DNA from: Dongia mobilis
GTDB taxonomy: Bacteria; Pseudomonadota; Alphaproteobacteria; Dongiales; Dongiaceae
Assembly: GCF_004363235.1 (NCBI RefSeq)
Contig: NZ_SNYW01000006.1
Span: forward strand, 310,001 to 374,000
Reading direction: 5' to 3'
DNA: 64,000 nt
This document shows positions 10,347 to 49,358 of this stretch, piece by piece; the first letter of the stretch is position 1, and each line of letters opens with the position of its first letter. The notes beneath the pieces were generated by a model. It was not told where the DNA came from. It saw only the letters and a list, made by a program, of their open reading frames with translations, and searched no databases. The position numbers were made by a program, and so were the translations under genes.

Positions 10347-10371
10347 TGGGATCAATTCCTCTGATCGGGAA

Positions 10372-33240: not shown

Positions 33241-34356
33241 ATGAGCATCGAGATCGCCATCGGTTCGAACATCCGCAAATCGCCCTATTTCGCGGCAACG
33301 CTGCGTGCCGGGGTCAAGTGCTTCTCGGTCTACAACCACACCTATATCCCGGCTCATTTCGGCGACCCGGAGGCGGAGTACCGACGCTTGACCACGGGTG
33401 TTGCGATCTGGGACGTGGCGGCGCAGCGCCAGGTCGAACTGGTCGGCCCCGATGCGGCGCGCCTCGCTCAATATCTGACCCCGCGCAATCTGGACGGTAC
33501 CCGGGTCGGGCAGGGGCGCTATGTTCCGCTGTGCGATCACGACGGCTATCTGATCAACGATCCGGTTCTGCTGAAACTGTCTGAGGATCGCTTCTGGCTG
33601 TCGGTCGCCGACAGCGACATCCATCTCTGGGCAGAGGCTGTGGCGCGGGAGAGGGGCTGGCAGGTCCGGGTATTCGAGCCCGACGTCTCGCCATTGGCGT
33701 TGCAGGGGCCGAAGGCGGTCGAGGTCACGACAGCCCTGTTCGGCGACTGGGTGCGGGATCTGCGGTATTTCTGGTTCCGCGAGACGTCACTGGACGGCAT
33801 TCCGCTGGTCCTCGCACGCTCCGGCTGGTCGAAGCAAGGTGGATACGAGCTTTACCTGACTGATGGGTCGCGCGGGAACGAATTGTGGGAAAAGGTCATG
33901 GCGGCCGGACGGGTGCACGGCATCGGTCCCGGGGCGCCGAATGACCTCGAGCGGCTGGAAAGCGGGCTGATCTCCTACGGGTCGGACATGCGTCGGCAGG
34001 TGGTTCCGGCGGATCCCTTCGAAATGGGCCTGGGCGGTCTGGTCGATCTCGCGGGCAGCCACGATTTCATCGGCCGCGAGGCGCTGGCAAGGGTCGCCGC
34101 GCGAGGTCCGGCGCGGCGGCGCGTAGGATTTCTGCTGGAGGGCGCGCCAGCCGCCGCCGGCCATCCGGTAGCCGTAACGCGTGATGGTGCCGAATTAGGC
34201 GTGCTCAGCGACATGGCCTACTCGCGGCGCTTCGAGCGGACGATCGGCGTCGGGCTCGTCCGGTCCGAACTGGCTGATGATGCTCTTGGTCTCACTGCCG
34301 AACTGCCGTCCGGGCCGCATCCCGTGCGCGTGACCGCGCTGCCGTTCCGACTCTGA
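33241..34356 (+). CDS. DmdA-like aminomethyltransferase-fold (GcvT family) protein
   Basis: The 371-residue protein has the GcvT folate-binding fold and closely follows the dimethylsulfoniopropionate demethylase pattern: FSVYNHTYIPAHFGDPEAEY, WDVAAQRQVEL, YVPLCDHDGYLINDPVLLKL and LSVADSDIHLWA. GcvT-family enzymes move methyl or methylene groups to tetrahydrofolate. Many DmdA-like proteins do not act on DMSP, so the substrate is open; a methylated sulfur or nitrogen compound fits its position between mdeA and an E1 gene. It starts 49 bases after mdeA. The ribosome site is weak. Confidence 0.82.
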   Translation: MSIEIAIGSNIRKSPYFAATLRAGVKCFSVYNHTYIPAHFGDPEAEYRRLTTGVAIWDVAAQRQVELVGPDAARLAQYLTPRNLDGTRVGQGRYVPLCDHDGYLINDPVLLKLSEDRFWLSVADSDIHLWAEAVARERGWQVRVFEPDVSPLALQGPKAVEVTTALFGDWVRDLRYFWFRETSLDGIPLVLARSGWSKQGGYELYLTDGSRGNELWEKVMAAGRVHGIGPGAPNDLERLESGLISYGSDMRRQVVPADPFEMGLGGLVDLAGSHDFIGREALARVAARGPARRRVGFLLEGAPAAAGHPVAVTRDGAELGVLSDMAYSRRFERTIGVGLVRSELADDALGLTAELPSGPHPVRVTALPFRL

Positions 34357-34384
34357 CCGCTATCGGTTTGCGAAAGGAAAGATC

Positions 34385-36757
34385 ATGGCTGCCGATCTCG
34401 TGCATCTGGAAACCCTGCACCGCCGATTGCTGTGGCTGGCATGCTGGACGATCCACAACGCCAACCACCTGCGCGAAAAGGATGACGGCGACGTGAAGGT
34501 CGGCGGCCACCAGGCGTCTTCCGCCTCGATGGCCGCCATCATGACGGCACTCTACTTTCACGCCCTGCGCCCGGAAGACAGGGTTGCGGTGAAGCCCCAT
34601 GCCGGACCCGTCTTCCATGCTATCCAGTATCTGATGGGAAACCTGCCGCTGGAGAAGCTGCAGAACTTCCGCGGTTATGGCGGTGTCCAAAGCTACCCCT
34701 CGCGCACGAAGGATGTCGACGACGTCGATTTCTCGACCGGCTCGGTCGGGCTTGGCGCGGCAATGCCGATTTTCGCGAGCCTGGTTCAGGATTACCTCCA
34801 GGGGCATGGCTATTCGGCGGCGCTGGGCCGCATGGTGGCGCTGATCGGCGATGCGGAACTGGACGAGGGCAATATCTACGAAGCGCTGCAGGAAGGCTGG
34901 AAGCATGACCTGCGCAATGTCTGGTGGGTGATCGACTACAATCGCCAGAGCCTGGACGGTGTCGTGCGCGAAGGCTTGTTTCATCGGATCGAGGCGATCT
35001 TTGCCGGCTTCGGCTGGCGCGTGGTCCGTCTGAAATACGGGGTCCGGCAGCGCGCCGCCTTTGCCGAACCGGGGGGTGATGCCCTTCGGGACTGGATCGA
35101 CGCCTGCCCGAATTCGCTTTATTCGGCGCTCACCTTCCAGGGCGGGGCGGCCTGGCGGAAGCGGCTGCAGGTGGATATCGGCGAAGCGGGCGCGGTCGCG
35201 GATCTCCTCGCGCGACGGTCGGATGCCGAACTGGCGAGCCTCATGGAAAACCTCGGCGGCCATTGCCTGCAGACCCTGTGCGACACGTTTGACGGCATCG
35301 CCGACGACCGCCCCACCGTCTTCCTGGCCTATACCGTCAAGGGCTGGGGAACGCCGCTCGCCGGGCACAAGGACAATCATGCGGGCCTGATGACGCCGGC
35401 GCAGATGACCGCCTTCCAGACCGCCATGGCGGTACCTGTCGGTGAGGAATGGAACCCGATGGCGTCGGTGCCGGATGTGGCTGCGCTGCAAGGTTTCCTC
35501 GCCCGGGTGCCGTTCTTTGCCAGGGGTCGCCGTCGTCTTGCGGCACCGGCCCTGCCGTGCCCGACGCCGGTAACCCTTACGGAGCGTGTGCTGTCGACCC
35601 AGGCGGCCTTCGGCAGGATCATGGATGAAATCGCCCGCAATGGCGGCCCTCTCGCCGACCGCGTGGTGACGATGTCGCCCGATGTGACCGTCTCGACCAA
35701 TCTCGGCGGCTGGGTCAATCGGCGCGCCCTGTTCGCGCGCGCCGAGCTGGGCGACACCTTTCGGGACGAGCGCATTCCTTCGACGCAGAAATGGGCCTTT
35801 TCCCCGCAAGGCCAGCACATCGAACTGGGCATTGCCGAGATGAATCTGATGCTGCTCCTAGGCGCGGCGGGGCTGGCGCATGCTTTGTTCGGTCAAAGAC
35901 TGATACCGGTGGGGACGGTCTATGATCCCTTCGTGGTTCGCGGCCTGGATGCCCTCAACTACGCCTGCTATCAGGATGCCAGGTTCCTCCTGGTCGGTAC
36001 GCCGTCCGGTGTTAGCCTGGCGCCCGAGGGCGGCGCACATCAATCCATCGGCACGCCCCTAATCGGCATGGCACAGGATGGCCTCGCCGCCTTCGAACCG
36101 GCATTCCACGACGAGTTGTCGATCATCCTGGACTGGTGCTTCGACTACCTGCAGCGGGACGGCGAGGGAAAACTAGACGAACGCACCTGGCTGCGTGACG
36201 AAACGGGTGGCTCGGTCTATTTGCGCCTCTCCACCCGGCCACTCGAACAGCCGCTGCGCCGGGCCGATCCGGAATTCGCACGCGGGGTCATCGACGGCGC
36301 CTATTGGCTGCGCGAGCCCGGACCGAATGCGGACGTGGTGATCGCCTATCAGGGGGCGATTGCGCCCGAGGCGATTGCCGCCGCCGGCCGGATCGCCGAA
36401 GGCCGGCGCGATGTGGGTGTTCTGGCCGTCACCTCGGCCGACCGCCTCAATGCCGGCTGGAGCGCGGCACGACGCGCAAGGGCACGCGGCCTGGCGACGG
36501 CGGCAAGCCAGGTGGAACGACTGATGGATCGATTGCCGCGGCATTGCACCCTGATCACGGTGATCGACGGACACCCGGCCACGTTGTCCTGGCTGGGCGC
36601 CGTGGCCGGCCATCGCACCGTGCCGCTTGGTGTGGAGCATTTCGGGCAGACCGGGACGATTGCCGACCTCTATGCCCATTTCGGGATCGATACCGCAGCC
36701 ATCGTCGCCGCTGCCAGCCGCATCAGTCCCGGCCGGCCCTTGCGACTGTCGGCCTGA
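34385..36757 (+). CDS. mdeB: 2-oxoacid dehydrogenase E1, single-chain (MdeB/AceE-like), thiamine diphosphate-dependent
   Basis: The 790-residue protein has the transketolase-type layout: TPP-binding GDAELDEGN...IDYN motif (about residues 154-185), a central pyrimidine domain with GIAEMNLMLLLGAAG, and a C-terminal domain. It is shorter than AceE (about 890 residues). In P. putida mdeB lies next to mdeA and encodes an alpha-ketobutyrate dehydrogenase E1, which would consume the 2-oxobutyrate made by MdeA. The E2 and E3 partners are not in the window. AAAGGAAAG precedes the ATG. Confidence 0.83.
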   Translation: MAADLVHLETLHRRLLWLACWTIHNANHLREKDDGDVKVGGHQASSASMAAIMTALYFHALRPEDRVAVKPHAGPVFHAIQYLMGNLPLEKLQNFRGYGGVQSYPSRTKDVDDVDFSTGSVGLGAAMPIFASLVQDYLQGHGYSAALGRMVALIGDAELDEGNIYEALQEGWKHDLRNVWWVIDYNRQSLDGVVREGLFHRIEAIFAGFGWRVVRLKYGVRQRAAFAEPGGDALRDWIDACPNSLYSALTFQGGAAWRKRLQVDIGEAGAVADLLARRSDAELASLMENLGGHCLQTLCDTFDGIADDRPTVFLAYTVKGWGTPLAGHKDNHAGLMTPAQMTAFQTAMAVPVGEEWNPMASVPDVAALQGFLARVPFFARGRRRLAAPALPCPTPVTLTERVLSTQAAFGRIMDEIARNGGPLADRVVTMSPDVTVSTNLGGWVNRRALFARAELGDTFRDERIPSTQKWAFSPQGQHIELGIAEMNLMLLLGAAGLAHALFGQRLIPVGTVYDPFVVRGLDALNYACYQDARFLLVGTPSGVSLAPEGGAHQSIGTPLIGMAQDGLAAFEPAFHDELSIILDWCFDYLQRDGEGKLDERTWLRDETGGSVYLRLSTRPLEQPLRRADPEFARGVIDGAYWLREPGPNADVVIAYQGAIAPEAIAAAGRIAEGRRDVGVLAVTSADRLNAGWSAARRARARGLATAASQVERLMDRLPRHCTLITVIDGHPATLSWLGAVAGHRTVPLGVEHFGQTGTIADLYAHFGIDTAAIVAAASRISPGRPLRLSA

Positions 36758-36777
36758 GCCAGTTTGCATCACCAGGC

Positions 36778-36793
36778 GCTGCAGGAATGCAGC
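36778..36793. promoter_or_regulatory. Candidate enhancer (UAS) for the sigma-54 activator, P450 operon
   Basis: GCTGCA-GGAA-TGCAGC is a perfect dyad centred about 131 bases before the predicted start of the P450 operon. An identical-arm dyad, GCTGCA-AAAT-TGCAGC, lies at 39564-39579 ahead of the second sigma-54 promoter. Such spacing is typical for bacterial enhancer-binding proteins. Confidence 0.65.
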
Positions 36794-36890
36794 GGCCCCT
36801 TGGCCGCCGCAACTCCCCGCTTGCTTCGGGCAGGGTCCAACTCTCCGAAATAAAACAGAAAATGCTGCTGTCCTCCGGCTTGTTTCCGGC

Positions 36891-36906
36891 TGGCACGTCG
36901 CTTGCT
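36891..36906 (+). promoter_or_regulatory. Sigma-54 promoter of the P450 operon
   Basis: TGGCACG-TCGC-TTGCT fits the -24/-12 consensus TGGCAYR-N4-TTGCW at every defined position. Transcription should start near 36917, about 26 bases before the P450 ATG, leaving room for its GGGAGGGGG ribosome site. A sigma-54 activator gene is in the same region (47985). Confidence 0.88.
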
Positions 36907-36942
36907 GTACCTCCCGGAAAATTCGGCCGAGGGAGGGGGTGC

Positions 36943-38142
36943 ATGAGCGCTGCAGAGACGATCGATGTTCCATACCTGAAATTGTCGGATCCGAGTTTTT
37001 CGATCCGCTCGCAGGAGGTGCGCGAGGCGCGGGCCAGGAACTGGTATGCGCGCACGCCTTATGGCATTGCCGTGCTGCGCTATGAGGATGTCGGCAAGCT
37101 GCTGCGCGATCCCCGGTTTCGCCAGGGCAGCCATGCCTGGCCGGCCCACAACCAGGCCACCGGCAAGTTCGCCGACTGGTGGCTCAGGATGCTGCTCAAT
37201 CGCGTCGGCGAGGATCATGCGCGGCTCCGGCGCCTCGCCAACCCAGCCTTCTCGCCCAAGCTGATCGCCTCGCTGCAGCCGGTCTTCGCCGAGCTTGCCA
37301 ACGACATCATCGACAAGTTCGCCAGGCGCGGCACCTGCGAGTTCATGGCGGAATTCTCCGAGCCTTATGCCACCCGCGTGATCTGCGCATTGCTGGGCCT
37401 CGATCAGAGCGAATGGCGGAATTTGGCCGATATCGCCGCCGATATGGGCTTGGCACTTGGTGTCACCTTCAAGCGCGACCTCGAGAAGATCAACGCGGCG
37501 ACGGAACGCCTCTTCGACTACGCCCATCGTGTGATCGAGGAGCGGCGAACCCGTCCGCCGGGCGAGGACTTCATCTCGCTGCTGCTGCAGGCCAACGAGA
37601 ACAAGGACAAGCTCTCCGACCAGGAACTCTACGACATGGTCGTGCTGGCGGTGTTTGGCGGCATCGACACCACCCGCAACCAGCTGGGCCTTGCCATGAG
37701 CATGTTCGTCGAGGCGCCCGACCAATGGAAGCTGCTGGCAGAGCGGCCGGATCTTGCCAAGAACGCCGTCGAAGAAGTCATGCGCCTGCGCCCGACCACG
37801 ACTTGGGTCACGCGCGAGGCGCTCGAGGACATGACTTACAAGGATCTTCTCATCAAACAGGGAACGACGCTGCATCTCTTCGCGGAATCGGCCGGCACCG
37901 ATCCCGAGGTGTTCGCGCCGGGCCTCGACATCACGGCGCAGCGCAAGCCGCATTTCGGCTTCGGCGGCGGCGCGCATCACTGCCTCGGCCACTTCATCGC
38001 CCGCGGCGACATGACCGAGGCCCTGAAGCTTCTGGCGCAGCGTCTGCGCAATCCGCGCTATGAGGGCGAACCGCTGTTCCTGCCGGACAGCGGCAATACC
38101 GGCCCGATCACCCTCAACATCCGCTTTGATCCCGAAGCCTGA
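36943..38142 (+). CDS. Cytochrome P450 (bacterial class I)
   Basis: The 399-residue protein has the I-helix oxygen-activation motif FGGIDTTRN, an ExxR (EEVMR) and the haem loop FGGGAHHCLG with the haem-ligating Cys at residue 347. It has no membrane anchor. Class I P450s take electrons from a ferredoxin and a ferredoxin reductase, and both genes follow at once. The context of glutamine-synthetase-like ligases and an amine ABC transporter recalls the P450/GS clusters of mycobacterial morpholine and piperidine degradation, so hydroxylation of a secondary amine is my preferred guess. Confidence 0.93.
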   Translation: MSAAETIDVPYLKLSDPSFSIRSQEVREARARNWYARTPYGIAVLRYEDVGKLLRDPRFRQGSHAWPAHNQATGKFADWWLRMLLNRVGEDHARLRRLANPAFSPKLIASLQPVFAELANDIIDKFARRGTCEFMAEFSEPYATRVICALLGLDQSEWRNLADIAADMGLALGVTFKRDLEKINAATERLFDYAHRVIEERRTRPPGEDFISLLLQANENKDKLSDQELYDMVVLAVFGGIDTTRNQLGLAMSMFVEAPDQWKLLAERPDLAKNAVEEVMRLRPTTTWVTREALEDMTYKDLLIKQGTTLHLFAESAGTDPEVFAPGLDITAQRKPHFGFGGGAHHCLGHFIARGDMTEALKLLAQRLRNPRYEGEPLFLPDSGNTGPITLNIRFDPEA

Positions 38143-38159
38143 TTTTCGCAGCGAGCCGG

Positions 38160-38351
38160 ATGATGAAAATCTGTGTCGACCTCGAGAAATGCCAGTCGCA
38201 CGGCCAGTGCGCCATCGCCGCGCCGGAACTCTTCAGCTTTGATGCCGAGGGCAAGCTGCGCTGGGTGAAGGAACCGCCGGTCGAGCAACAGGCCACGGCG
38301 GAGGCCGCCGCCGATGCCTGCCCGGAACAGGCGATCACGATCGGGACCTGA
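38160..38351 (+). CDS. Small [3Fe-4S]-type ferredoxin for the P450
   Basis: The 63-residue protein has CQSHGQC and a later CP (ACPEQAI). One cluster Cys is replaced by His, the usual pattern of P450-linked [3Fe-4S] or His-ligated ferredoxins. It begins 17 bases after the P450 gene and ends seven bases before the reductase gene. A second in-frame ATG at 38163 makes the start ambiguous by one codon. Confidence 0.92.
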   Translation: MMKICVDLEKCQSHGQCAIAAPELFSFDAEGKLRWVKEPPVEQQATAEAAADACPEQAITIGT

Positions 38352-38358
38352 CAGCCGG

Positions 38359-39585
38359 ATGCCACGGGTCCTCATCGTCGGCGCCTCGCTGGGCGGCCTG
38401 CGCGCGGCCGAAGCGCTGCGTGATGCGGGCTTTCACGGGGCCATATCCAGCGTCGGCGCCGAGGCGCACCCGCCCTACAACCGGCCACCCCTCTCCAAGG
38501 ATGTCCTGCTGGGAAATGCGACCAGCGATGGCGTGCTGGCGGAACTCGCGTTTCCAAGGAAGGCAAGACTGGGCGAGATCGACTGGCGCCTCGGCATGTC
38601 GGTGGCAGCGGTGGATCTCGCGCAAGGTGAAGCACGACTTGCCGACGGCAGTCGCATTCACTTCGACGCGCTGATTGTCGCCACCGGCCTGCGACCGCGC
38701 CGGCTGCAATTGACGGGGGCGACGGCTGACCGTTTCGTCCTCCGGACGCTGCCGGATGCGCTGGCATTGCGGGCCCGCCTCGTTCCGGGCGCGCGTATCG
38801 CCATCATCGGCGGCGGCTTCATCGGCTGTGAGGTGGCGGCATCTGCGCGGAGGCGGGGGTGTGCCACGACCGTGATCGAGCCTTTGATCGTGCCGATGCA
38901 GCGCGCCCTGGGGCAGGAATTCGGCGCGGCCATGCAGGCGCTGCATGAGGCGGCGGGCATCCGGTTCCGGACCGGCCGCCAGGTGACAGGTTTTGAAGTG
39001 GACGTGAGCGACCGGCTGCACGCCGTCCGACTCGACGACGACTCGCTGGTCGAGGCCGACCTCGCCGTCGAGGCGGTGGGATCGCAGCCCAATACCGAAT
39101 GGCTGGCCGGCAACGGCTTTGATCTTGATGACGGGATCCTATGCGACCATCGTATGGCCGCCATTGGCCACGATCGCGTGGCGGCAGTGGGCGACGTGGC
39201 GCGGTTTCCCTGCCTGCTGTTCGACGACGTGCCGCGCCGGGTCGAGCATTGGTCGATCCCCGGTCTTACCGCGCGCCGGGCGGCCGGGCATGTCGCGCGC
39301 CAGCTCGGCGTCGCCGTGCCGGACGCCCCGTTCGCGCCGCTGCCGACTTTCTGGAGCGATCAGCTCGGCCTGCGGATCCAATGCGCTGGCCTGCCGGGCC
39401 TTGCCGATCGGGTGGGCCTCCTGTCCGGCTCGCTTGGGCCGGACAGCATGCGCCGGGACGGCGCCGTCATGGGCTATTGGCGCAAGGACCGGCAGGTCGG
39501 TGTTGCGGCCATCGGGGTTGCGCCCCAGCGCTTCATCAACTTCCAGGCGGACCTTGTCAGGGCGCTGCAAAATTGCAGCCTATGA
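38359..39585 (+). CDS. FAD-dependent ferredoxin reductase for the P450
   Basis: The 408-residue protein is of the putidaredoxin/rubredoxin reductase type: FAD fold (LIVGASLGGLRAAEALR), PPYNRPPLSKDVLLG, NAD fold (IIGGGFIGCEVAASARRRG) and FAD-closing AAVGDVARF. A reductase C-terminal domain follows. It moves electrons from NAD(P)H to the adjacent ferredoxin. With the two genes upstream it makes a complete electron-transfer chain. The dyad at 39564-39579 lies in its last codons. Confidence 0.93.
   Translation: MPRVLIVGASLGGLRAAEALRDAGFHGAISSVGAEAHPPYNRPPLSKDVLLGNATSDGVLAELAFPRKARLGEIDWRLGMSVAAVDLAQGEARLADGSRIHFDALIVATGLRPRRLQLTGATADRFVLRTLPDALALRARLVPGARIAIIGGGFIGCEVAASARRRGCATTVIEPLIVPMQRALGQEFGAAMQALHEAAGIRFRTGRQVTGFEVDVSDRLHAVRLDDDSLVEADLAVEAVGSQPNTEWLAGNGFDLDDGILCDHRMAAIGHDRVAAVGDVARFPCLLFDDVPRRVEHWSIPGLTARRAAGHVARQLGVAVPDAPFAPLPTFWSDQLGLRIQCAGLPGLADRVGLLSGSLGPDSMRRDGAVMGYWRKDRQVGVAAIGVAPQRFINFQADLVRALQNCSL
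39564..39579. promoter_or_regulatory. Candidate enhancer (UAS) for the sigma-54 activator, ligase operon
   Basis: GCTGCA-AAAT-TGCAGC has the same arms and spacing as the dyad at 36778-36793 and is centred about 151 bases before the predicted start of the ligase operon. It sits within the last codons of the ferredoxin reductase gene. A further AT-rich dyad, TGATG (39583) with CATCA (39596), follows. Confidence 0.65.
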
Positions 39586-39696
39586 TGAAAAATTGCATCA
39601 CTCGAACACCGGCAGCGCGGGGCACAGCCCGGCAACCGGGATGAATTTCCACTGATAAACAGATGGATAGCGCCTAGCCGGCCACGTCGAAAAATT

Positions 39697-39712
39697 TGGC
39701 ATGGTGTTTGCT
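39697..39712 (+). promoter_or_regulatory. Sigma-54 promoter of the ligase/ABC operon
   Basis: TGGCATG-GTGT-TTGCT fits the -24/-12 consensus at every defined position. Transcription should start near 39723. This rules out translation from a TTG at 39696 and points to GTG 39771, which lies about 48 bases downstream. Confidence 0.83.
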
Positions 39713-39770: not shown

Positions 39771-41117
39771 GTGACGGGAGAAAAAGGGACGGCGGCTGCG
39801 ATTGCGCAGGCGCTGGATAGATTGAAGGCCGAGATCGTGCATGTCGGCCTGTTTGACTTTGCCACCATGTTCCGCGAGCGGCGGCTGCGCCGGGCCGAGC
39901 TGCTGGCCGGTGCCGAGCACGCGGTCTTTGCCAATGTGCTGCCGAAATGGGACAGCGCCGAAAGCATCCTGGCGCCCGGGCCGTATCGCAGCGAGACCGT
40001 GGCCTATGACCCGGCCTCGATCCGGCCCTATCCGTTCGAAGCAAGCGCTGCGGTGATGGTAGCGGACTACACCGGGCCGCAGGCCGAGATCATGCCGCGC
40101 CGCGTGCTGCAGCGGCAGATCGAGCGCGCCGCTACTGCCGGCTATGCCATCGAGGCGGCCTTCGAATTCGAGTTCATCGTTCTCAACGAGACGGCGGAGA
40201 GCCTGCGCGATAAGAAGTTCCGCGATCTCGCGGAATTCGCGCCGGACAACCGGTGCTGGTCCGGCCAGACGGCTGCCACTTATGCGCCGTTCGTGAGCGA
40301 TCTCGATGCCCTGCTGAAGAGCGCCGATATCGACCTGTTCTCGTTGAGCGTCGAGCTTGGGCCGGGCTGCTTCGAGGCGACTTTGAGGCACCGGCCGGCG
40401 ATGCGCGCGGCCGACGACGCCGCCTTCTTCCGCATGTTCACCAAGGCCTTCTGCCGCCAGCGCAACCTGACGGCCAGTTTCATGCCGCTGCTGGGCGCCG
40501 GATTTCCCGGGATCGGTGGCCATATCTGTCTCTCGCTGCGCGATGCCAAGACCGGCCGCAACCTGTTTGCCGACAAGGCGGACGAGAACGGGCTTTCGCC
40601 GCTTGCCAAATCCTTCCTGGCCGGGATCATCGACCTTGTGCCGGACGGCTTCCCGATGGTCGGCCACACGGTCAACGCCTATCGCCGGTTGGGCCCGGGC
40701 AGCTGGGCGCCGAAGACGGTCAGCTGGGCGCCTTACAACTATGCTGCTGCCGTCCGCACCGCCGCCGAGACCGAGGAGATGACGCGCCTGGAGCTGCGCC
40801 TGCCGGGCAGCGACGTGAACGTCTATCTGGGTCTTGCGCTCATGCTGGGCGCCGGTCTCGACGGCATCGAGCGCAAGCTCTCCCTGAAGGACGAGCCCAT
40901 CGCCAGTGGCGGACCGAACGAAGTCCCACCCAACGCGCCGCGCCTGCCGGCCGACCTTCTCGAGGCGACGCGCCGCTTTCGTGGCAGTGCCGCCGTGAAA
41001 CGCATCTTCGGCCAGGCCTTCGTCGACCATTTCGCCATGATCTGCGAAGCCGAGGACACGGCCCTGCGCCGGGTGGTGAGTCCCACCGAGGTGCAACGCT
41101 ATCTCGAAGCCGGCTGA
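39771..41117 (+). CDS. Glutamine synthetase-like gamma-glutamyl ligase (first copy)
   Basis: The 448-residue protein has the GS catalytic core: EFEFIV (metal Glu), VELGPGCFEATL (Glu/Gly glutamate site), GGHICLSL (His of the catalytic loop) and NYAAAVRTA (phosphate-binding Arg). The Asn-Arg of canonical GS NRxAxxR is changed to Asn-Tyr, and the N-terminal grip is short. These suggest a non-ammonia nucleophile, as in gamma-glutamylamide synthetases. GTG 39771 has AGGGG eight bases upstream and lies after the sigma-54 promoter. It is the first gene of the ligase/ABC operon. Confidence 0.82.
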   Translation: MTGEKGTAAAIAQALDRLKAEIVHVGLFDFATMFRERRLRRAELLAGAEHAVFANVLPKWDSAESILAPGPYRSETVAYDPASIRPYPFEASAAVMVADYTGPQAEIMPRRVLQRQIERAATAGYAIEAAFEFEFIVLNETAESLRDKKFRDLAEFAPDNRCWSGQTAATYAPFVSDLDALLKSADIDLFSLSVELGPGCFEATLRHRPAMRAADDAAFFRMFTKAFCRQRNLTASFMPLLGAGFPGIGGHICLSLRDAKTGRNLFADKADENGLSPLAKSFLAGIIDLVPDGFPMVGHTVNAYRRLGPGSWAPKTVSWAPYNYAAAVRTAAETEEMTRLELRLPGSDVNVYLGLALMLGAGLDGIERKLSLKDEPIASGGPNEVPPNAPRLPADLLEATRRFRGSAAVKRIFGQAFVDHFAMICEAEDTALRRVVSPTEVQRYLEAG

Positions 41118-41170: not shown

Positions 41171-42688
41171 ATGAACCAGACCACGACCCTGCAGAAGCCG
41201 CATATCGCCCAAGGCCCCGATTCCGATTTCCGTCGCATCCGGGCCGATCCAGCGCGGGCCGAGCTGGTCCGCCAGGTGCGGGCCAAGATCGATCTGCTCA
41301 AGGTCGATTACATCTATTTCCAGTATGTCTCGATCACCGGCCGCGTCATGGGCAAGGCCTGTCCGGCGAGGCATTGGGAGCAGATCGCGCAGAAGGGGGT
41401 ACAGACCTTCATGGGCGGCGTCACCAATGTCTTCCCCGACCGCCAGGGCAGGCTAATCGGCTTTCCCGCCAACGCTCACGAGGTCATCGCCCTGCCCGAC
41501 CCGGAGACCTTCTGCCAGCTGCCCTGGAACAAGCGGATGGCGCGCGTCTTCTGTACGCTGTTCTACATGGAGGAGGACCCGGTCAATCCAGGCGCCTTCT
41601 TCGATGTCGACTGTCGCGGCAACCTGAAGCGCATCGACGCCCAGTTCCGCGCCGATCACGACGGCCTGCATATGCGCGTGGGCTGCGAGCCGGAGATGCT
41701 GTGGCTGAAGAAGGGGACGACGCCGGATACGCCCTATGAAGGCACCACCAAGCCCTATGCCTATCATATCGAGCAATTCGAGCAACTGGCCGAGGTCTGG
41801 CTGCGCGTCTACGAATATGCGATCGCCATGGGCCTCGACATCATCCAGGGTGATCACGAGGATGCGCCGGGTCAGGTTGAGCTCAATTTCACCTTCGACG
41901 ATGCATTGCGCACGTCCGACCGCCTTACAACCTATCGCCAGATCTGCGCCCAGGTCGCGCGCGAGTTCGGGCTCATCGCCTGCTTCATGACCAAGCCCTA
42001 TATGGGCATGTCGGCCAATGGCTGTCACCACAACCTCTCGCTCTGGCGTGGCGGCAAGGGCGAGGTCGCCGATCTGGTGCCTAGTCCGCTGCCGGGCATG
42101 GACCAGGTATTTACCTATTCCCGCGGCGGCAAGAACGAGTTCCGCGACGAGCGCGAGGTCTGGAAGCCGGCCGAGATCGGCCGCCATGCCCTCGGCGGCA
42201 TGCTCGAGCACCTCTCCGGCATGACGGCGATCGCCTGTTCGACGGTCAACTCCTATCGTCGCCTCAACGATACTGGCCTCTGGGCGCCATTGGCCATCAA
42301 TTGGGGCCTGCAGAACCGCTCCTGCGCCGTGCGCGTCTCCAGCCCGGACCGTTTCGAATACCGGCCCTGTGATTCCATGGTGAACCCCTATCTGATGCAG
42401 GCGGCACTCTACAAGGCCATGGATGACGGCCTGAAGAATCGTATCGATCCCGGCGAGCCGGAGGAGCGCAACCTCGTCGAGGTAATGCGTTCCGGTGAGG
42501 CGGTACGGCGCATCCCGATGAATCTTGCCGATGCGCTCGACGCCCTGGCAGCCGACCAAGTGGTACGCTCGGCCATGCCAGGGCGCATGTATGAGGTCTA
42601 CGAGTGGTACAAGCGCGACGAGTGGGACCGCTTCATCTGGGAAGCATCGGATTGGGATGTGAAGACCTATCTCGATTGCCTGCCCTGA
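41171..42688 (+). CDS. Glutamine synthetase-like gamma-glutamyl ligase (second copy)
   Basis: The 505-residue protein has GCEPEMLW (metal Glu), EDAPGQVELNF (glutamate site), MSANGCHHNLSLW (catalytic loop His) and NRSCAVRVSS (phosphate Arg). It differs clearly from the ligase upstream, which is 448 residues, so the two are paralogues or subunits and not a recent duplication. GS-like ligases of this kind add glutamate to amines such as putrescine, methylamine, isopropylamine or anilines. It begins 53 bases after the first ligase and precedes an amine-type binding protein. Confidence 0.87.
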   Translation: MNQTTTLQKPHIAQGPDSDFRRIRADPARAELVRQVRAKIDLLKVDYIYFQYVSITGRVMGKACPARHWEQIAQKGVQTFMGGVTNVFPDRQGRLIGFPANAHEVIALPDPETFCQLPWNKRMARVFCTLFYMEEDPVNPGAFFDVDCRGNLKRIDAQFRADHDGLHMRVGCEPEMLWLKKGTTPDTPYEGTTKPYAYHIEQFEQLAEVWLRVYEYAIAMGLDIIQGDHEDAPGQVELNFTFDDALRTSDRLTTYRQICAQVAREFGLIACFMTKPYMGMSANGCHHNLSLWRGGKGEVADLVPSPLPGMDQVFTYSRGGKNEFRDEREVWKPAEIGRHALGGMLEHLSGMTAIACSTVNSYRRLNDTGLWAPLAINWGLQNRSCAVRVSSPDRFEYRPCDSMVNPYLMQAALYKAMDDGLKNRIDPGEPEERNLVEVMRSGEAVRRIPMNLADALDALAADQVVRSAMPGRMYEVYEWYKRDEWDRFIWEASDWDVKTYLDCLP

Positions 42689-42750
42689 CCCCGGGGTCAA
42701 GCCCAGCTAGCACAAGAAACCGACCAAGCATGAAAAACAGGAGAGGCAAA

Positions 42751-43809
42751 ATGAAACGGAAGACGATATTCAGCGGCGGTACGGCCATCACCCTGGCCTT
42801 GAGCGTTGTGGCGACGCCGGCGCTGGCCGAAGGCGAGGTCAACATCCTCACCTGGGAAGGCTATGCGGACCAGAGCTTCGTCGCGCAGTTCGAGCAGGAA
42901 TCGGGCTGCAAGGTGACAGCGACCTATGTCGGGTCGAATGACGACTTCGCGCCGAAGCTGGCGGCAGGTGGTGGCGTCTACGACCTCATCACACCCTCGA
43001 TTGACACCACCAAGACCATGATCGAGGCGGGCTTTGTCGAACCCCTCGACACCTCGAAGATCTCGGAGTGGAACAACATCTACGAAAAGTTCCGCAACGC
43101 CGAGGGCATCAATCACGATGGCGCCGTCTATGGCATGCCCTATTCCTGGGGCGCCATCGCCTTCATGTACCGAGTCGACAAGTTCCCGACACCACCCACC
43201 TCGATCGCCGATTTGTGGTCGGAGGCGGTGAAGGGCAGGGTTTCGCTGTGGGACGACAAGAGCGCCATCTATGTGGCCGCGCGCCTCAACGGCGACAACG
43301 ACATCTACAACCTCACCGACGAGCAGATCGAAAAGGCCAAGGCGAAACTGATCGAGCAGAAGCCGCTGGTCCGCAAGTACTGGGCGACGGCCGGCGAACT
43401 GGTTGATCTCTATGCCGCCGGCGAAGTCTGGATCTCCAACACCTGGGCCGGCTACCAGTCGAGTCTCATCAAGGAGAAGGGAATTGAGGTCGCAGAGTTC
43501 ATCCCCAAGGAGAATGCCGAGGGCTGGATGGATTCCTGGATGGTCGTGAAGGACACGCCCAACCTCGACTGCGCCTACAAGTTTCTCAACATGCAGAGCT
43601 CGGAGCTTGGCCAGTGCGGCGTCGCCAATGTCAACGGCTATTCGGCCGCAAACCCGGTTGCTGCCAAGAAATGCATGTCGCCGGAGCAGTATGAGGCGCT
43701 GCACCAGGACGATCCGGACTACCTCAACAGCCTGTTGCTGTGGGAAAATCTGGGCGAGCGGATCGAGGCTTACACCAATGCCTGGAACGCGGTAAAGTCG
43801 GCCAACTGA
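42751..43809 (+). CDS. Polyamine-type (PotD/PotF-like) periplasmic binding protein
   Basis: The 352-residue protein has a Sec signal (cleavage after TPALA, about residue 26). It shows the spermidine/putrescine-binding-protein start VNILTWEGYADQSFVAQFEQESG, of which ILTWEGYADQSFV is characteristic. It should capture an amine for the transporter encoded next. AGGAG lies eight bases before the ATG at 42751; an ATG at 42730 has no such site. The hairpin at 43831 follows. Confidence 0.9.
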   Translation: MKRKTIFSGGTAITLALSVVATPALAEGEVNILTWEGYADQSFVAQFEQESGCKVTATYVGSNDDFAPKLAAGGGVYDLITPSIDTTKTMIEAGFVEPLDTSKISEWNNIYEKFRNAEGINHDGAVYGMPYSWGAIAFMYRVDKFPTPPTSIADLWSEAVKGRVSLWDDKSAIYVAARLNGDNDIYNLTDEQIEKAKAKLIEQKPLVRKYWATAGELVDLYAAGEVWISNTWAGYQSSLIKEKGIEVAEFIPKENAEGWMDSWMVVKDTPNLDCAYKFLNMQSSELGQCGVANVNGYSAANPVAAKKCMSPEQYEALHQDDPDYLNSLLLWENLGERIEAYTNAWNAVKSAN

Positions 43810-43830
43810 GCATGCTGCCGCTGCGCGAAG

Positions 43831-43856
43831 GGAGAGAGCCGGCAACGGCTCTCTCC
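43831..43856 (+). terminator. Intercistronic GNRA hairpin after the amine-binding protein gene
   Basis: An 11-bp perfect stem, GGAGAGAGCCG (43831-43841) with CGGCTCTCTCC (43846-43856), closes a GCAA tetraloop and is followed by a T-rich stretch (AACTCTTCTTTGCTTT). It should cause partial termination or protect the upstream message, raising binding-protein levels over the ATPase and permeases. Confidence 0.75.
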
Positions 43857-43901
43857 AACTCTTCTTTGCTTTCGTCCTATCAGGCGCCGGGCCATACCGA
43901 T

Positions 43902-44990
43902 ATGAGCAAGATCGTCGAGATCGACGGCGTTTCCAAGATCTATGGCGGCTCGGTCGTCGCCGTGGACGACCTCACGCTTGCCATCAAGGAGGGCGAATTC
44001 GTCACCCTGTTGGGGCCGTCGGGCTGTGGCAAGACCACGCTCCTGCGCATGCTGGCCGGGTTCGAATCACCGGACCGGGGTATCATTCGCCTGGCAGGAG
44101 AGGACGTTACCAGTCGGCCACCCTACCGGCGCGACGTCAACATGGTGTTCCAGGATTACGCGCTGTTTCCGCATCTGAGCGTCGCAAAAAACGTCGCCTT
44201 CGGTCTCGAGCGGCAACGTCTGGATCGCACCGAAATCGGCAGGCGGGTCGCCGACGCACTGTCTCTGGTCGGGCTGGCCGACAAGGCCGAGCGGCGCCCG
44301 CACGAGCTTTCCGGTGGCCAAAGGCAGCGCGTGGCGCTGGCGCGCGCCATCGTAAGGCGGCCCAAGGTCCTGCTGCTGGATGAACCCCTGTCCGCCCTCG
44401 ATGCCAACCTGCGCGAGGCCATGCAGGTCGAACTCAAGCACCTTCACGAGAAGCTCGGCCTGACCTTCGTGATGGTGACCCATGACCAAACCGAAGCACT
44501 GGTGATGAGCGACCGCATCGTGCTGATGAAGGATGGCCGCATCGCCCAAATGGGTGAGCCGGCGGAGCTCTACAACCGGCCGGCAAGTCCCTATGTGGCG
44601 AGTTTCATCGGGACCACCAACCTGCTTCCGGTAGAGGTAAGATCGGTTGCGGATGGTCGCGCTGTGGTGGCACTGGGCGGACGCAATCTTGAGCTGCCGG
44701 CGCCGGCAGGTCTCGTTGCCGGCCATGCCGCTCTGCTCGGAATTCGTCCCGAAAAGCTGCGCCTTGAGACCGATGGAACCGTCGGCGCGTGCCAGATCTC
44801 GGTCGCCGTCGAGGAAGGCCTGTTCCATGGCAACGCCGTGCGCCTGCGCTGCCTCGGTGAAGACGGCAGCGTCCTGCTCGTCGATCTGCAACTCAGCCAA
44901 TCCAGTATCGCGGTTCCGGCGCGCGGGTCGCGCCTGCAGCTCAGCTGCGACCCGACGGATCTCTACCTCTTTGCCGGAGACGACCGGTAA
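43902..44990 (+). CDS. Polyamine-type ABC transporter ATPase (PotA-like)
   Basis: The 362-residue protein has Walker A (GPSGCGKTT), signature (LSGGQRQRVALARAI), Walker B (VLLLDEPLSALD), switch His (VTHDQTEAL) and a C-terminal TOBE regulatory domain (about 245-360). It powers import by the two permeases encoded next. The stop TAA shares its last base with the next ATG (TAATG). No good ribosome site precedes ATG 43902, but it begins the conserved fold. Confidence 0.92.
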   Translation: MSKIVEIDGVSKIYGGSVVAVDDLTLAIKEGEFVTLLGPSGCGKTTLLRMLAGFESPDRGIIRLAGEDVTSRPPYRRDVNMVFQDYALFPHLSVAKNVAFGLERQRLDRTEIGRRVADALSLVGLADKAERRPHELSGGQRQRVALARAIVRRPKVLLLDEPLSALDANLREAMQVELKHLHEKLGLTFVMVTHDQTEALVMSDRIVLMKDGRIAQMGEPAELYNRPASPYVASFIGTTNLLPVEVRSVADGRAVVALGGRNLELPAPAGLVAGHAALLGIRPEKLRLETDGTVGACQISVAVEEGLFHGNAVRLRCLGEDGSVLLVDLQLSQSSIAVPARGSRLQLSCDPTDLYLFAGDDR

Positions 44991-45895
44991 TGTTCGCGGG
45001 GCAGGCAAGCCCGGTTCTTCCGGTTGGACGCCGGTGGTCGCGCGACCGGCTGCTTCGCAACCTGGTGCTGGGGACGCCGCTGGTCTGGGCGGTCGTCTTC
45101 ATGTTCATTCCCTATCTCATCATCTTTACCTACAGTTTCTGGCTCAAGAAGTATCCGACTTTCGTGCCGGCCTTCCAGTTCGGCAATTATGCGCAGCTCT
45201 TCGCCGATCCGCAGTACTACCAGGTCCTGCTGCGGACCGCGAAGATCGCCCTGGCCGTTTCGTTGAGCTCGCTGCTGCTCGCCTACCCCTTCGCGTATTA
45301 CCTGGTATTCATCCTCAAATCGCCGCGGCTGCGCCTGATGCTCTATATGGCGGTGATCGCGCCGCTCTGGGTTTCCTATCTGCTTCGCGCCTATATCTGG
45401 AAGACGATCCTCGGCAACGAAGGCGTCATCAATTCGTTCCTGGTCTATGTCGGTATCCTCGACCGGCCGACCGACATTTTCCTCTATAACCAGTTCTCCA
45501 TGGTGCTGACGCTCACCTATATCTTCATTCCGTTTATGGTGATGCCGATCTACACGGCGCTTGAGAAGATTCCCCGCAACCTGATCGAGGCATCGAAGGA
45601 TCTCGGCGTGGGACCACTGGGCACGCTCTTCAAGGTAATCGTGCCGCTGTCGTTGCCAGGAATATTCGCCGGCATGACCTTCGCCTTCTGCCTCACTTTC
45701 GGCGATTTCGTCGCGCCCTTCCTGGTGGGCGGTCCGGACGGCGTCATGGTGGCGAACGTGATCACCTCGCAATACGGTGCGGCCCTCAACTGGCCGCTGG
45801 GATCGGCTCTTGCCATCGTCATGCTGATCATCGTGCTCGGCATCATCGAATTGTCGGACCGCGTCGAGCGCGCCGGCCGCATCAACCTGGCGTGA
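44990..45895 (+). CDS. Polyamine-type ABC permease (PotB-like)
   Basis: The 301-residue protein has six membrane helices. Its EAA loop reads LIEASKDLGVGPLGTLFKVIVPLSLPG, of which EASKDLGVGPLGTLFKVIV is the core. It forms half of the channel. The start overlaps the ATPase stop and the end is ten bases before the second permease gene. Confidence 0.92.
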   Translation: MFAGQASPVLPVGRRWSRDRLLRNLVLGTPLVWAVVFMFIPYLIIFTYSFWLKKYPTFVPAFQFGNYAQLFADPQYYQVLLRTAKIALAVSLSSLLLAYPFAYYLVFILKSPRLRLMLYMAVIAPLWVSYLLRAYIWKTILGNEGVINSFLVYVGILDRPTDIFLYNQFSMVLTLTYIFIPFMVMPIYTALEKIPRNLIEASKDLGVGPLGTLFKVIVPLSLPGIFAGMTFAFCLTFGDFVAPFLVGGPDGVMVANVITSQYGAALNWPLGSALAIVMLIIVLGIIELSDRVERAGRINLA

Positions 45896-45905
45896 GGTGA
45901 AGACC

Positions 45906-46712
45906 ATGTCCTTCGCCCGCACCAGCGCCCTGGACCGCATCGGCACCGGCACCTTTACGCTGGTGATCCTCTGCGTCCTGTCCTTCCTCTACGTGCCGAT
46001 TGTCATCCTTGTGGTGTTCAGCTTCAACGATTCCAGTTCGCTCACCTGGCCGCTCGGCGGCTTTACCTGGGGCTGGTACGAAAAACTGTTCTCCAACCGG
46101 GATCTTTTACGGGCAATCGGCAACAGCTTCTATGTCGCGACCTTCGCCACAATTCTGACCCTGCTGGTCGGTGTACCGGCGGCCTTCGCGCTGGATCGGC
46201 TGGATTTCGTCGGCAAGCGCGTGTTCCGTCGCCTAGTCCTGCTGCCGCTGGTGCTGCCGGGGATCATCACCGGCATCTCGATGCTGAACCTCTTCAAGCT
46301 GATGGGGATCGGTCTCAGCCTGGAGACGGTCGTACTGGGTCACGCGACTGCTCTCATTTCGATCGTCGTTACCCAGGTCTATGCCCGCCTGCAGCGGCTC
46401 AACCGGCGCCTGGAAGAGGCGGCGGCGGATCTTGGCGCGAAGCCCTGGGAAACCATGTTCCTGGTGGTCCTGCCCAATATCAAGTCGGCGCTCATCGGCA
46501 GCGCACTGCTCTCGTTTACCCTATCCTTCGATGAAATCCCGGTAACCTTCTTTCTGACTGGCCGCGACAACACGCTACCCATGTACATCTGGTCCACCAT
46601 GCGGCGCGGCATAACGCCGGAGATCAACGCCGTGGGTACGCTGATCGTGCTGGCGTCGTTGCTGCTGATCGTGGTGTCCGTTATCCTGCTGCGGGACGAG
46701 CAGGAAAGGTAG
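45906..46712 (+). CDS. Polyamine-type ABC permease (PotC-like)
   Basis: The 268-residue protein has six membrane helices. It carries the PotC hallmark VVFSFNDSS near residue 40 and the EAA loop EEAAADLGAKPWETMFLVVLP. I take ATG 45906, with AGGTG upstream, over GTG 45897. It completes the amine transporter. Confidence 0.92.
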   Translation: MSFARTSALDRIGTGTFTLVILCVLSFLYVPIVILVVFSFNDSSSLTWPLGGFTWGWYEKLFSNRDLLRAIGNSFYVATFATILTLLVGVPAAFALDRLDFVGKRVFRRLVLLPLVLPGIITGISMLNLFKLMGIGLSLETVVLGHATALISIVVTQVYARLQRLNRRLEEAAADLGAKPWETMFLVVLPNIKSALIGSALLSFTLSFDEIPVTFFLTGRDNTLPMYIWSTMRRGITPEINAVGTLIVLASLLLIVVSVILLRDEQER

Positions 46713-46770
46713 GATTGCAGATGCGGTGCGCGTCACCAGCACGTCGGAACTTGCTGCAGGAGAGCGCTCG

Positions 46771-47988
46771 ATGAACCGCGCCCGATCCCTGGCTCAGGCT
46801 GCCGGCGCCGATCTTCTTGATACGGCACCGGTCATGTTCGACCTTGTTTCCGTCGATGGTATCCTCGTCTATGCCAATGCCTGGGAGGAGCGGTCGCTCG
46901 GCTTTCCGGTCGGGGCGCTGGCCGGAAAGAGGTTTGATCTCATCTACCCGCGGGAGGCCCGCGACGTCCTGCTGCGGCTCTTTGACGACGGAGCGGGTGC
47001 TGTGGCCGAGAACCGGCGGCTGGTCGTGCGCCGCCAGGACCGCCGCGTTCTCGACGTCAATGCCAGCATCAACGGCTATACGGATCCGGCCCATGGACCG
47101 TGCCTGCGCGTCGTCAAGTTTCCCCTCGATGAGACATTGCAGAAGCTGCGACGGCTGGAGCAGGAAAACGAGGTGCTGGGCAGCATCGTTACCACGGCAC
47201 GCGACGCCACCTATTGCATCGAATTCCTCGAGCCGGTCGACCTGACGGCGCCTGAACACGAGGTCGTGCGGCAGGTCTTTGCCAACAAATGCGTCTGGCG
47301 TTACTGCAATGAGGCGATGTCGCGGCTCTACCGGCTGCCGCTGGGCGATGATCTCAACCAGCATGATGTGCGCGAAGTCTTTATGCGCAATCCGGAAAAC
47401 GAGGCATTCGTGCGCCAGTTGCTGGCGAACGGATTCCAGGTCGATGGCGCCCTGTCGCGCGACCACCGCTATGACGGTGTCGACGTGATGATCGAGAACG
47501 ATGTCCGCGCCAGAATCGAGGATGGCTATCTGATCCAGTTCTGGGGTGTGGTGCGCGATCTTGCCGAGCGGCAGAAGCGCGAGCGCGAGCTGGAGATGCG
47601 GGCCAGCGCGGCACTTGACCTGCTGGGTGCCATCCCCAACCCTCTCCTGGTGGTGGACGTCAACGGCCGTATCGAAGGTGGCAATGCGGCGATCGAAGGC
47701 GCATTCGGCCGGTCCCTGGATGAAGTTCTCGGCGCCGACGTCGAGCGCATCGTGCACTTTGCGACCCCCGTCGCAGAGCTGTTGCGGTCGCTGCACGAAG
47801 GCCACGGTACCCGCACGCTGGAGGGCAGCGTCAGGCAGCCCGGCGGGCAAAGACAGCTCTGCCAGGTGACAATGGCGACGGTGGACGACGACGCGACGAC
47901 ATCGCGGACCGTCTTCACCTTTCACCTGCCGCGTCGGTCCGAACCGCGCCCCGCCGAGCAGCGCAACCGGCCGGAGGCCGATGCATGA
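46771..47988 (+). CDS. Multi-PAS sensory protein without a kinase domain
   Basis: The 405-residue cytoplasmic protein has PAS-like folds at about residues 18-135, 140-275 and 290-395. A charged, probably coiled-coil linker (LQKLRRLEQENEVLG; RQKRERELEMR) lies between them. No histidine kinase, GGDEF or HTH follows, so it may sense a ligand and act by contact with the next protein, a PAS-containing sigma-54 activator whose ATG overlaps its stop. AGGAG eight bases before ATG 46771 fixes the start; GTG 46726 is less likely. Confidence 0.75.
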   Translation: MNRARSLAQAAGADLLDTAPVMFDLVSVDGILVYANAWEERSLGFPVGALAGKRFDLIYPREARDVLLRLFDDGAGAVAENRRLVVRRQDRRVLDVNASINGYTDPAHGPCLRVVKFPLDETLQKLRRLEQENEVLGSIVTTARDATYCIEFLEPVDLTAPEHEVVRQVFANKCVWRYCNEAMSRLYRLPLGDDLNQHDVREVFMRNPENEAFVRQLLANGFQVDGALSRDHRYDGVDVMIENDVRARIEDGYLIQFWGVVRDLAERQKRERELEMRASAALDLLGAIPNPLLVVDVNGRIEGGNAAIEGAFGRSLDEVLGADVERIVHFATPVAELLRSLHEGHGTRTLEGSVRQPGGQRQLCQVTMATVDDDATTSRTVFTFHLPRRSEPRPAEQRNRPEADA

Positions 47989-49358
47989 GCCGGACGCCGC
48001 TGCATGGCGCAAGTGATGTGGCGGTGTTCGATGCGCTGGCCGATGGCATCATCCTGCTGGATGCGGAATTGAACCTGCGCTTCCTCAACGCATCGGCGGC
48101 CGAGATGCTGGGTGTGGTGCGCGAGGCGGCGCTCGGTCTTTCCTTTGTCCAGTTGACGGCACGGAGCACGGCGGATCTCGCCGAACTGCTGGAACTGGTG
48201 GAGGGTGGCCGCAAGGCAGAGGCCATCGTGCGCGCCGGCGACGGCCGCGTGTTGATGACTTCGCTGCGCCAGGTGGAAGCCATTGGCAAGGCGACGGCCG
48301 GCATGCTGCTGCAGATGCGGGACATTGCCGTGCTCGACCACGAGCGCGACCGGGCCGGAGCCAAGGAATCGCGCCGCGCCTTCCGCTTCCTGTCGCAGCA
48401 GAAGCTGCGACCCGACCTTTCGCATCAGCGCCGCCTGTCGTCGCAGCTCGACCGGCTGCTGACGCTGGGCGAGCGCAGCATGGCGCAAAATGCCCGCGTT
48501 CTGCTGACCGGTGAATCGGGCGTCGGCAAGACCGAGATCGCGCGGCATCTTCACGTCTCGGCGAGCGGGGCCAACGCGCCCTTTATTCACGTCAATTGCG
48601 GCTCGATTCCGGATTCGCTGTTCGAATCGGAGATGTTCGGCTACGAGCGCGGCTCCTTTACCGGGGCGTTGCAGACCGGGCGCAAGGGTCTCATTGAATC
48701 GGCTGATGGCGGGACCCTGTTCCTGGACGAGGTCGGCGAAATTCCGTTGCCAATGCAGGCGAAGCTATTGAAGTTCCTTGAATCCTCGACCATCCAGCGG
48801 ATCGGCGGCAGTGCCGAGCACGCGGTCAAGGTGCGCGTCATCTCGGCCACCAACCGCGATCTCGAGACCATGGTGAAGAAGGGCGAGTTCCGGCGCGATC
48901 TGTTCTATCGGCTTGCTGTCGTGCCGCTTACCGTGCGACCGCTGCGGCAGACGCCGGAATTGTTCGACGATCTGGTCGACTATCTGGTCGCCGTCGTGAA
49001 CCAGCGACGCCTGGCGCCGATGACCCTCACCAGGGAATGCCGCGACCGGCTGCGTGGCTATCACTTCCCGGGCAATATCCGCGAGTTGCACAATATCATC
49101 CAGCAATTGTCGGTACTGGCCGACAAGGTGGCGGAGGTCAAGCACCTGCCCGAGACGGTGATGGCGGCCGGCATGGCGGTGAATGCCGGGCCGATCGCGA
49201 CCGATGCGCCACGTGCCGACCTCAAGGAGATCGTGCGCGCCTATGAGCGCCAGGTGATCGCCCGCGCCATCGCCCAGCATGGCAGCAAGCGGAAGGCCGC
49301 CGAGGCGCTCGGCGTCGACATCGGCACCATTGTCCGCAAGACGCAGATGGAACAATGA
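47985..49358 (+). CDS. Sigma-54-dependent activator with N-terminal PAS domain
   Basis: The 457-residue protein has a PAS domain (about residues 10-118) and an AAA+ domain with Walker A GESGVGKT (176-183), sigma-54 contact loop GSFTGA (223-228; a Ser variant of GAFTGA) and Walker B LFLDEVGE (245-252). An arginine finger (FRRDLFYRL) and a C-terminal Fis-type HTH (about 425-455, KRKAAEALGVDIGTIVRK) follow. There is no phosphorylated receiver, so control is by the PAS domain or the upstream PAS partner. It is the obvious activator of the two sigma-54 promoters at 36891 and 39697. Confidence 0.92.
   Translation: MSRTPLHGASDVAVFDALADGIILLDAELNLRFLNASAAEMLGVVREAALGLSFVQLTARSTADLAELLELVEGGRKAEAIVRAGDGRVLMTSLRQVEAIGKATAGMLLQMRDIAVLDHERDRAGAKESRRAFRFLSQQKLRPDLSHQRRLSSQLDRLLTLGERSMAQNARVLLTGESGVGKTEIARHLHVSASGANAPFIHVNCGSIPDSLFESEMFGYERGSFTGALQTGRKGLIESADGGTLFLDEVGEIPLPMQAKLLKFLESSTIQRIGGSAEHAVKVRVISATNRDLETMVKKGEFRRDLFYRLAVVPLTVRPLRQTPELFDDLVDYLVAVVNQRRLAPMTLTRECRDRLRGYHFPGNIRELHNIIQQLSVLADKVAEVKHLPETVMAAGMAVNAGPIATDAPRADLKEIVRAYERQVIARAIAQHGSKRKAAEALGVDIGTIVRKTQMEQ

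Follow-up and report, generated by a model that had tools for sequence, protein, structure and literature searches.

Palindromes at two sigma-54 promoters of Dongia mobilis as predicted sites of a TyrR-like activator

Introduction

What binds a pair of palindromes with identical arms that precede two sigma-54 promoters in Dongia mobilis? The palindromes (dyads), GCTGCA-N4-TGCAGC, lie in the 64,000-nucleotide stretch of DNA analysed here (the window; contig NZ_SNYW01000006.1, positions 310,001-374,000). One precedes P1, the promoter before a cytochrome P450 operon, and the other precedes P2, the promoter before an operon that begins with GS1, a glutamine-synthetase-like (GS-like) gene. A first-pass annotation had proposed the dyads as common sites of the two promoters for a sigma-54 activator encoded at 47985. 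Comparative evidence makes this the best-supported reading, and we consider it very probable that the dyads serve the protein encoded at 47985-49358 as upstream activator sites (enhancers).

Results

The elements at the two promoters are as follows; bit scores refer to the matrix described below, and distances to position -26.

36764..36772, + strand: half-site TTGCATCAC, a lone right arm about 23 bp upstream of the centre of dyad A, with a degenerate left arm
36778..36793, no strand: dyad A, predicted upstream activator site of P1, GCTGCA-GGAA-TGCAGC; 19.0 bits (18.7 leave-one-out), centre at 104 bp
36890..36906, + strand: -24/-12 element of P1, CTGGCACGTCGCTTGCT, 13/13 matches
39564..39579, no strand: dyad B, predicted distal site of P2, GCTGCA-AAAT-TGCAGC; 19.4 bits, centre at 124 bp
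39584..39599, no strand: dyad C, predicted proximal site of P2, GATGAAAAATTGCATC; 20.9 bits, centre at 104 bp, 20 bp from dyad B
39696..39712, + strand: -24/-12 element of P2, TTGGCATGGTGTTTGCT, 12/13 matches

Dyads A and B are located where the first-pass annotation had placed them, and each is preceded by GGC. Their distances from the promoters are similar, as had been claimed, and fall within the range typical of upstream activator sites (approximately 80-200 bp). The arms are the same, whereas the four-base centre is shared in length but not in letters. The annotation had also listed TTGCATCAC as a feature beside each dyad. It is present there, at 36764 and 39593, and nowhere else on either strand of the window, but it is not a separate element: at P2 it is the right arm of dyad C, which had not been listed, and at P1 it is a single half-site that the matrix does not call at 6.5 bits. 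P2 therefore has two palindromes in tandem, spaced so as to lie on one face of the helix.

Dyad A starts 21 bp past the last base of the mdeB open reading frame (ORF), and dyad B ends 6 bp short of the end of the ferredoxin-reductase ORF, in agreement with the earlier description of the former as downstream of mdeB and the latter as within reductase codons. Given these positions at the 3' ends of the two genes, the dyads could instead be terminators or hairpins, and the arms of each would allow a 6-bp stem closed by a loop of four bases (no energy was computed). We regard this as highly improbable. Neither dyad is followed by a T run, and the position of the dyads is fixed relative to the -24/-12 element. 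Tandem copies about two helical turns apart also fit a terminator poorly, as do the sites between divergent -24/-12 elements described below.

A further possibility is that two GC-rich palindromes resemble each other by chance. Within the window alone the count is not striking: with one mismatch allowed, exactly two matches are present where 0.43 are expected, and 8 of 100 shuffles of the window reach two. Among 60 relatives there are 14 copies of the exact dyad, spread over 9 genomes, versus 17 copies of its reversed control, so that the dyad is no commoner than the control. Dyads A and B stand out because the exact dyad is otherwise at chance level in the relatives, yet here two copies occur within 2.8 kb, each before a -24/-12 element. 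The first-pass annotation had called for a genome-wide scan to see whether the dyad is common and unlinked to sigma-54 promoters. In the whole genome (4,187,288 bases on 14 contigs) the exact dyad occurs as dyads A and B only, with none in the reversed control, whereas the looser GMTGCANNNNTGCAKC, with one mismatch allowed, is common (97 places, 4 of them exact, versus 17 for its reversed control). For the exact dyad, the scan thus favours the first-pass proposal. What sets the dyads apart is their strict form, their occurrence as a pair and their setting before promoters. Chance is, to us, the least probable of the explanations considered, as it is contradicted by this genome-wide result and by the comparisons across species that follow, in which reversed sequences gave a site in 2 of 29 promoter regions and a dyad with promoter in none of 46 loci.

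Six -24/-12 matches in the window score at least 11. Besides P1 and P2, one more, at 27310, scores 12, and no dyad of at least 9 bits lies upstream of it. A minimal pattern of dyad plus -24/-12 element was found at nine places in the D. mobilis genome, P1 and P2 included, and at none in the reversed control. A stricter pattern gave 10 places in nine of 33 activator-bearing genomes, three of which are known promoters (P1, the P450 promoter of locus L033 and the transporter promoter of L039). It missed most known promoters owing to its gap and letters, and we claim no new target from it.

A query with the P450 retrieved 46 loci from named genomes. In most of the alphaproteobacterial loci the gene order is P450-reductase-GS1-GS2-PAS-activator, often with a transporter, and the activator lies within the fetched stretch in 32 of the 46. 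The motif set comprised the 220 bp upstream of the -24/-12 element in 29 regions (window P1, the G002 stretch and 27 of the 46 loci), which were picked by their -24/-12 elements and not by dyads. Excluded before counting were L034 and L050, which are close to L033 and L048; L059, which meets a contig end; L061 and L065, where no -24/-12 element was credible; and 14 loci without a -24/-12 match of at least 9 within 120 bp of the P450 start (L054, L062, L063, L064, L066-L071, L073-L076). Window P2 was not used in building the matrix.

Among the 15,360 gapped palindromes compared in an unbiased scan (1024 arms by 15 gaps, at most one mismatch), GCTGC-N6-GCAGC and GATGC-N6-GCATC ranked at the top, each in 18 of the 29 regions (0.50 and 0.60 expected, respectively); no motif occurred in more than six regions in 40 shuffles. 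A palindromic matrix built by hard assignment, in which each leave-one-out fit was started from the full matrix, has the 18-bp consensus YGMTGCR-N4-YGCAKCR. Soft expectation-maximization on the promoter regions had drifted to the GC-rich background and was replaced. With leave-one-out fitting every one of the 29 regions contains a site (best site 12.3 to 20.5 bits), and 19 contain at least two at the 6.5-bit cut; the reversed-sequence figure given above was obtained with the full matrix. The two sites of the held-out P2 score 19.4 and 20.9 bits. Between window P1 and G002 P1, the dyad and the -24/-12 element are the main islands of identity.

The sites also keep regular positions. Of 50 centres, 20 lie 112-116 bp and 10 lie 131-135 bp from -26, and among 21 spacings between neighbours 11 are 19-20 bp, seven are 23-25 bp and three are larger. 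The centres follow a 10.5-bp period with R of 0.63 (51 centres) or 0.56 (25 distinct), values in which five centres are one base too large and relatedness is uncorrected. The refined predicted site is the 18-bp YGMTGCR-N4-YGCAKCR, which often recurs in tandem at a spacing of 19-20 bp. An IHF-like site separates dyad and promoter in 5 of 30 regions, versus a mean of 0.4 and a maximum of 3 in single-base shuffles, a weak signal that we do not use as support.

The protein encoded at 47985 has the intact AAA+ core of a bacterial enhancer-binding protein, with Walker A, Walker B and the GAFTGA-type loop: it matches Pfam Sigma54_activat at 209 bits and contains GESGVGKTE, GSFTGA and GGTLFLDEVGE. It also matches HTH_50 (46.6 bits versus a cut-off of 27), which we take to be the TyrR-type helix-turn-helix (HTH), and this HTH is well conserved. 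Among the nine window proteins scanned (the ferredoxin, ATPase and permeases were outside the scan), it is the only one with a DNA-binding domain.

We counted loci with a dyad of at least 13 bits lying 60-220 bp from a -24/-12 match of at least 11, anywhere in the locus (loci and not whole genomes were scanned for dyads). Of the 32 loci whose fetched stretch includes the activator, 22 have such a pair, as do 2 of the 14 others. Three of these 14 (L036, L044, L068) come from genomes that do carry the activator (E 1e-75 or better), in L036 on the same contig just past the fetched stretch. Counted by genome, 24 of 35 loci with the activator have the pair versus 0 of 11 without it. The window, L084 and the 46 loci together comprise 994,624 bases and, with the training regions included, contain 80 dyads of at least 14 bits. 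Of these, 32 sit 60-220 bp from a -24/-12 match of at least 11, versus 1.1% of positions. The other 48 are not so placed, and some of them precede weaker -24/-12 elements.

When whole loci were scanned without regard to gene positions, a dyad with a -24/-12 element was also found before a transporter binding-protein gene in L039 (2055) and L049 (823). In L049, L051, L058 and L060 (about 9630-9670, minus strand) a divergent -24/-12 element shares dyads with the P450 promoter. The pair is also present in Acidocella L065 and, weakly, in L062. Elsewhere there are a few weak pairs of 9 to 11.5 bits, and two in the window itself (5428 and 28929) fall in this class.

Searches with the activator protein led, besides the window and G002, to six loci not reached via the P450 (L084, L122, L123, L127, L128, L129). 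Four of them (L123, L127, L128, L129) have a dyad and a -24/-12 match of 11-12 before GS1, and their stretches lack a P450 match at the cut-offs used for the match tables (80 and 100 bits). Their dyad centres lie at 91 bp, 111 bp, 124 and 104 bp, and 104 bp, respectively; the two dyads of L128, 20 bp apart, repeat the arrangement of window P2. L122 begins inside GS2, and its promoter is outside the stretch. Three of the four, together with L122, belong to one family and are hence not mutually independent.

These loci bear on the possibility that the dyads bind another regulator (a general nitrogen activator, for instance NtrC, some other resident sigma-54 activator or a repressor) and are merely near the activator gene. 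Nitrogen-scavenging genes are typically NtrC targets, and the D. mobilis genome has 32 loose first-look candidates for other activators. We nevertheless consider another regulator unlikely. The motif tracks the activator gene and not the P450, as it is present in activator loci that lack the P450. It is absent, as a dyad with promoter, from the 11 P450 loci of activator-less genomes, though each of these genomes has 14-28 loose first-look activator candidates (not checked individually). The only DNA-binding domain found among the scanned window proteins also favours the 47985 protein.

In L131 (1392-1449), from the same genome as L036 (G412, Xanthobacter agilis), a 19.9-bit dyad lies just past the activator gene, about 57 bp from a -24/-12 match of 12 that is on the activator's strand.

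The activator alignment had 43 rows, 41 after L131 (wrong strand) and L132 (empty) were dropped. G[AS]FTGA and the Walker B DE are kept in 40 of the 41. The protein of G010 (L084; orthologue and dyads noted at 8228-11204) alone deviates, with GGLPAA in place of the loop, Walker A GKA, Walker B DA and sensor AAH, such that the Walker A Thr and Walker B Glu are lost. Its HTH differs from that of the window in one of the 22 residues shown. The operon in L084 is preceded by two dyads, of 20.9 and 17.4 bits, which lie 217 and 195 bp upstream of the PAS-gene start, and no good -24/-12 element was found near them: on the + strand, matches from dyads to start reach only 7/13, with a 9 past the start, and the other strand has matches of 8, one 9 (8090) and one 10 (7881). 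A sigma-70-like site of 8/12 was not found either. This single case is suggestive of a lost sigma-54 loop going together with a missing sigma-54 promoter, while the dyads stay with the HTH.

The genes of the cluster, all on the + strand, are listed below.

36943..38142: cytochrome P450; of the solved structures, 3p3l/3p3o match best
38160..38351: ferredoxin-like small ORF, named from position and sequence look only
38359..39585: ferredoxin reductase (Pyr_redox_2, Reductase_C)
39771..41117: GS-like GS1, GTG start; family match
41174..42688: GS-like GS2; family match
42745..46712: polyamine-type ABC transporter genes; the binding protein is assigned by a family search, the ATPase and two permeases from sequence
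46726..47988: PAS-domain protein in which no output domain was found, directly before the activator
47985..49358: sigma-54 activator, proposed dyad binder; PAS, Sigma54_activat (GSFTGA), TyrR-type HTH_50

GS1 and GS2 score below the cut-offs of all GS models matched. The genes between 39771 and 49358 share one strand and, with the starts chosen here, are separated by less than 100 bp; P2 therefore probably transcribes the activator gene too. A match to the PAS-only protein is present in all 32 activator-carrying P450 loci; this protein is a possible sensor partner of the activator. Upstream of the P450, at 31983-36757, are genes like methionine gamma-lyase (by sequence only), dimethylsulfoniopropionate (DMSP) demethylase (362 bits, cut-off 410) and mdeB (pyruvate-dehydrogenase-E1-like). 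None of the three is among the matches listed in the 46 loci or in the G002 stretch beside its P450.

Discussion

We suggest that dimers of the PAS-AAA+-HTH protein bind the 18-bp YGMTGCR-N4-YGCAKCR site via the TyrR-type HTH. The two sites of P2, two helical turns apart, and the full site plus half-site of P1 could nucleate the AAA+ ring, which would loop to sigma-54 RNA polymerase at -24/-12 and open it with ATP. P1 would then drive P450-ferredoxin-reductase, and P2 would drive GS1-GS2-transporter-PAS-activator. Given that the proposed P2 operon includes the activator gene, the activator would also promote its own synthesis. An amine sensed by one of the PAS domains is the probable signal. 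An amine ligand seems likely because the P450 is kin to mycobacterial loci with GS-like genes, because pipA and morA, as cited in PMC9477822, are cyclic-amine P450s, and because GS-like genes are present here.

Several points weigh against this interpretation. P1 has a single full site, and the abundance of the loose motif in the genome means that the loose motif alone is not specific. The matrix was seeded after the sequences had been seen and its leave-one-out fits began from the full matrix; the unbiased scan nonetheless agrees with it, and its two top motifs overlap, such that a mixed GCTGC/GCATC site counts for both. The loci are related and not independent. The 11 activator-less loci belong to distant taxa, four of them mycobacterial, so that linkage is confounded with ancestry; mycobacteria are not known to have any sigma-54. 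The dyads of G010 lack a good sigma-54 promoter. Finally, 11 of the 35 activator loci fail the strict count. Seven of these (L035, L040, L045, L052, L054, L055, L077) have dyads with a -24/-12 match below 11, and L059 runs into a contig end. The remaining three, L062, L068 and L069, come from Acidocella and show weak matrix hits or none. The -24/-12 elements of Acidocella L062, L065, L068 and L069 score 12-13, and on the matrix L065 reaches 15.6 bits, L062 10.1, and L068 and L069 less than 6, with a related TTGCAAATTTGC seen by eye in L068.

A broader proposal, which we hold tentatively and at somewhat less than even chances, is that this family of activators acts as a portable sigma-54 switch with a GS-like/transporter operon as its core target, and that the P450 operon was captured by gaining the same dyads. 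G010 could then be a natural conversion to a sigma-54-independent regulator, with loop and ATPase residues lost and HTH and dyads kept, and the PAS-only protein would be the sensor partner. An orthologue that lacks GAFTGA and keeps its sites is a natural experiment on how sigma-54 activators may become ordinary regulators.

A keyword search of the open-access literature (subscription papers being outside its scope) found no paper describing this motif, activator or cluster. An activator for which no described target was found thereby gains a concrete, testable predicted binding site and regulon. These provide a handle on the purpose of the P450/GS-like/transporter cluster, and regulon prediction becomes possible in some dozens of alphaproteobacteria.

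Among known systems, the cyclic-amine P450 operons of mycobacteria, pipA and morA as cited in PMC9477822, share with the D. mobilis cluster the combination of P450, ferredoxin and reductase. The mycobacterial loci that we found have P450s 55-60% identical and GS-like genes, which does not imply identity with pipA or morA themselves. In these loci (L064, L073, L074, L075) there is no -24/-12 match of at least 10 in the 700 bp before the P450, and L064 has one 9/12 dyad-like match without a promoter. Their genomes have no activator at E 1e-75 or better.

Of the named activator models, PrdR (NCBIfam NF041552) scores best with the 47985 protein, at 288 bits against a cut-off of 795. The AAA+ and HTH regions align, but the match spans residues 154-452 only. 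The NCBIfam TyrR equivalog model gives 211 bits, below its cut-off of 576. The TyrR box of Azospirillum brasilense is TGTAACG-N4-CTTTACA (PMC6375630), and the system resembles ours in the AAA+ and HTH domains, the 18-bp layout and the outer TG/CA, and differs in the inner arm bases; moreover, no ACT domain is called in the 47985 protein.

The 18-bp, 7-4-7 layout of palindromic arms is common to TyrR, GcsR and the sites described here, whereas the letters of the arms differ. GcsR of Pseudomonas aeruginosa is a TyrR-like activator with three tandem 18-bp sites, TGTAACG-N4-CGTTCCG, at a sigma-54 promoter (PMC4894688). The likeness extends to the sigma-54 promoter, the tandem 18-bp palindromes upstream of it and an activator gene adjoining the target operon. 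The differences are in the arms (TGTAACG versus YGMTGCR here), in the number of sites (three, versus two, or one and a half-site, here) and in the target (glycine cleavage, versus P450, GS-like and transport genes here). Geometry and HTH would place the 47985 activator with the TyrR-like activators, and the dyads are best read as tandem sites for a TyrR-like sigma-54 activator that is as yet uncharacterised and whose closest counterpart in geometry is GcsR.

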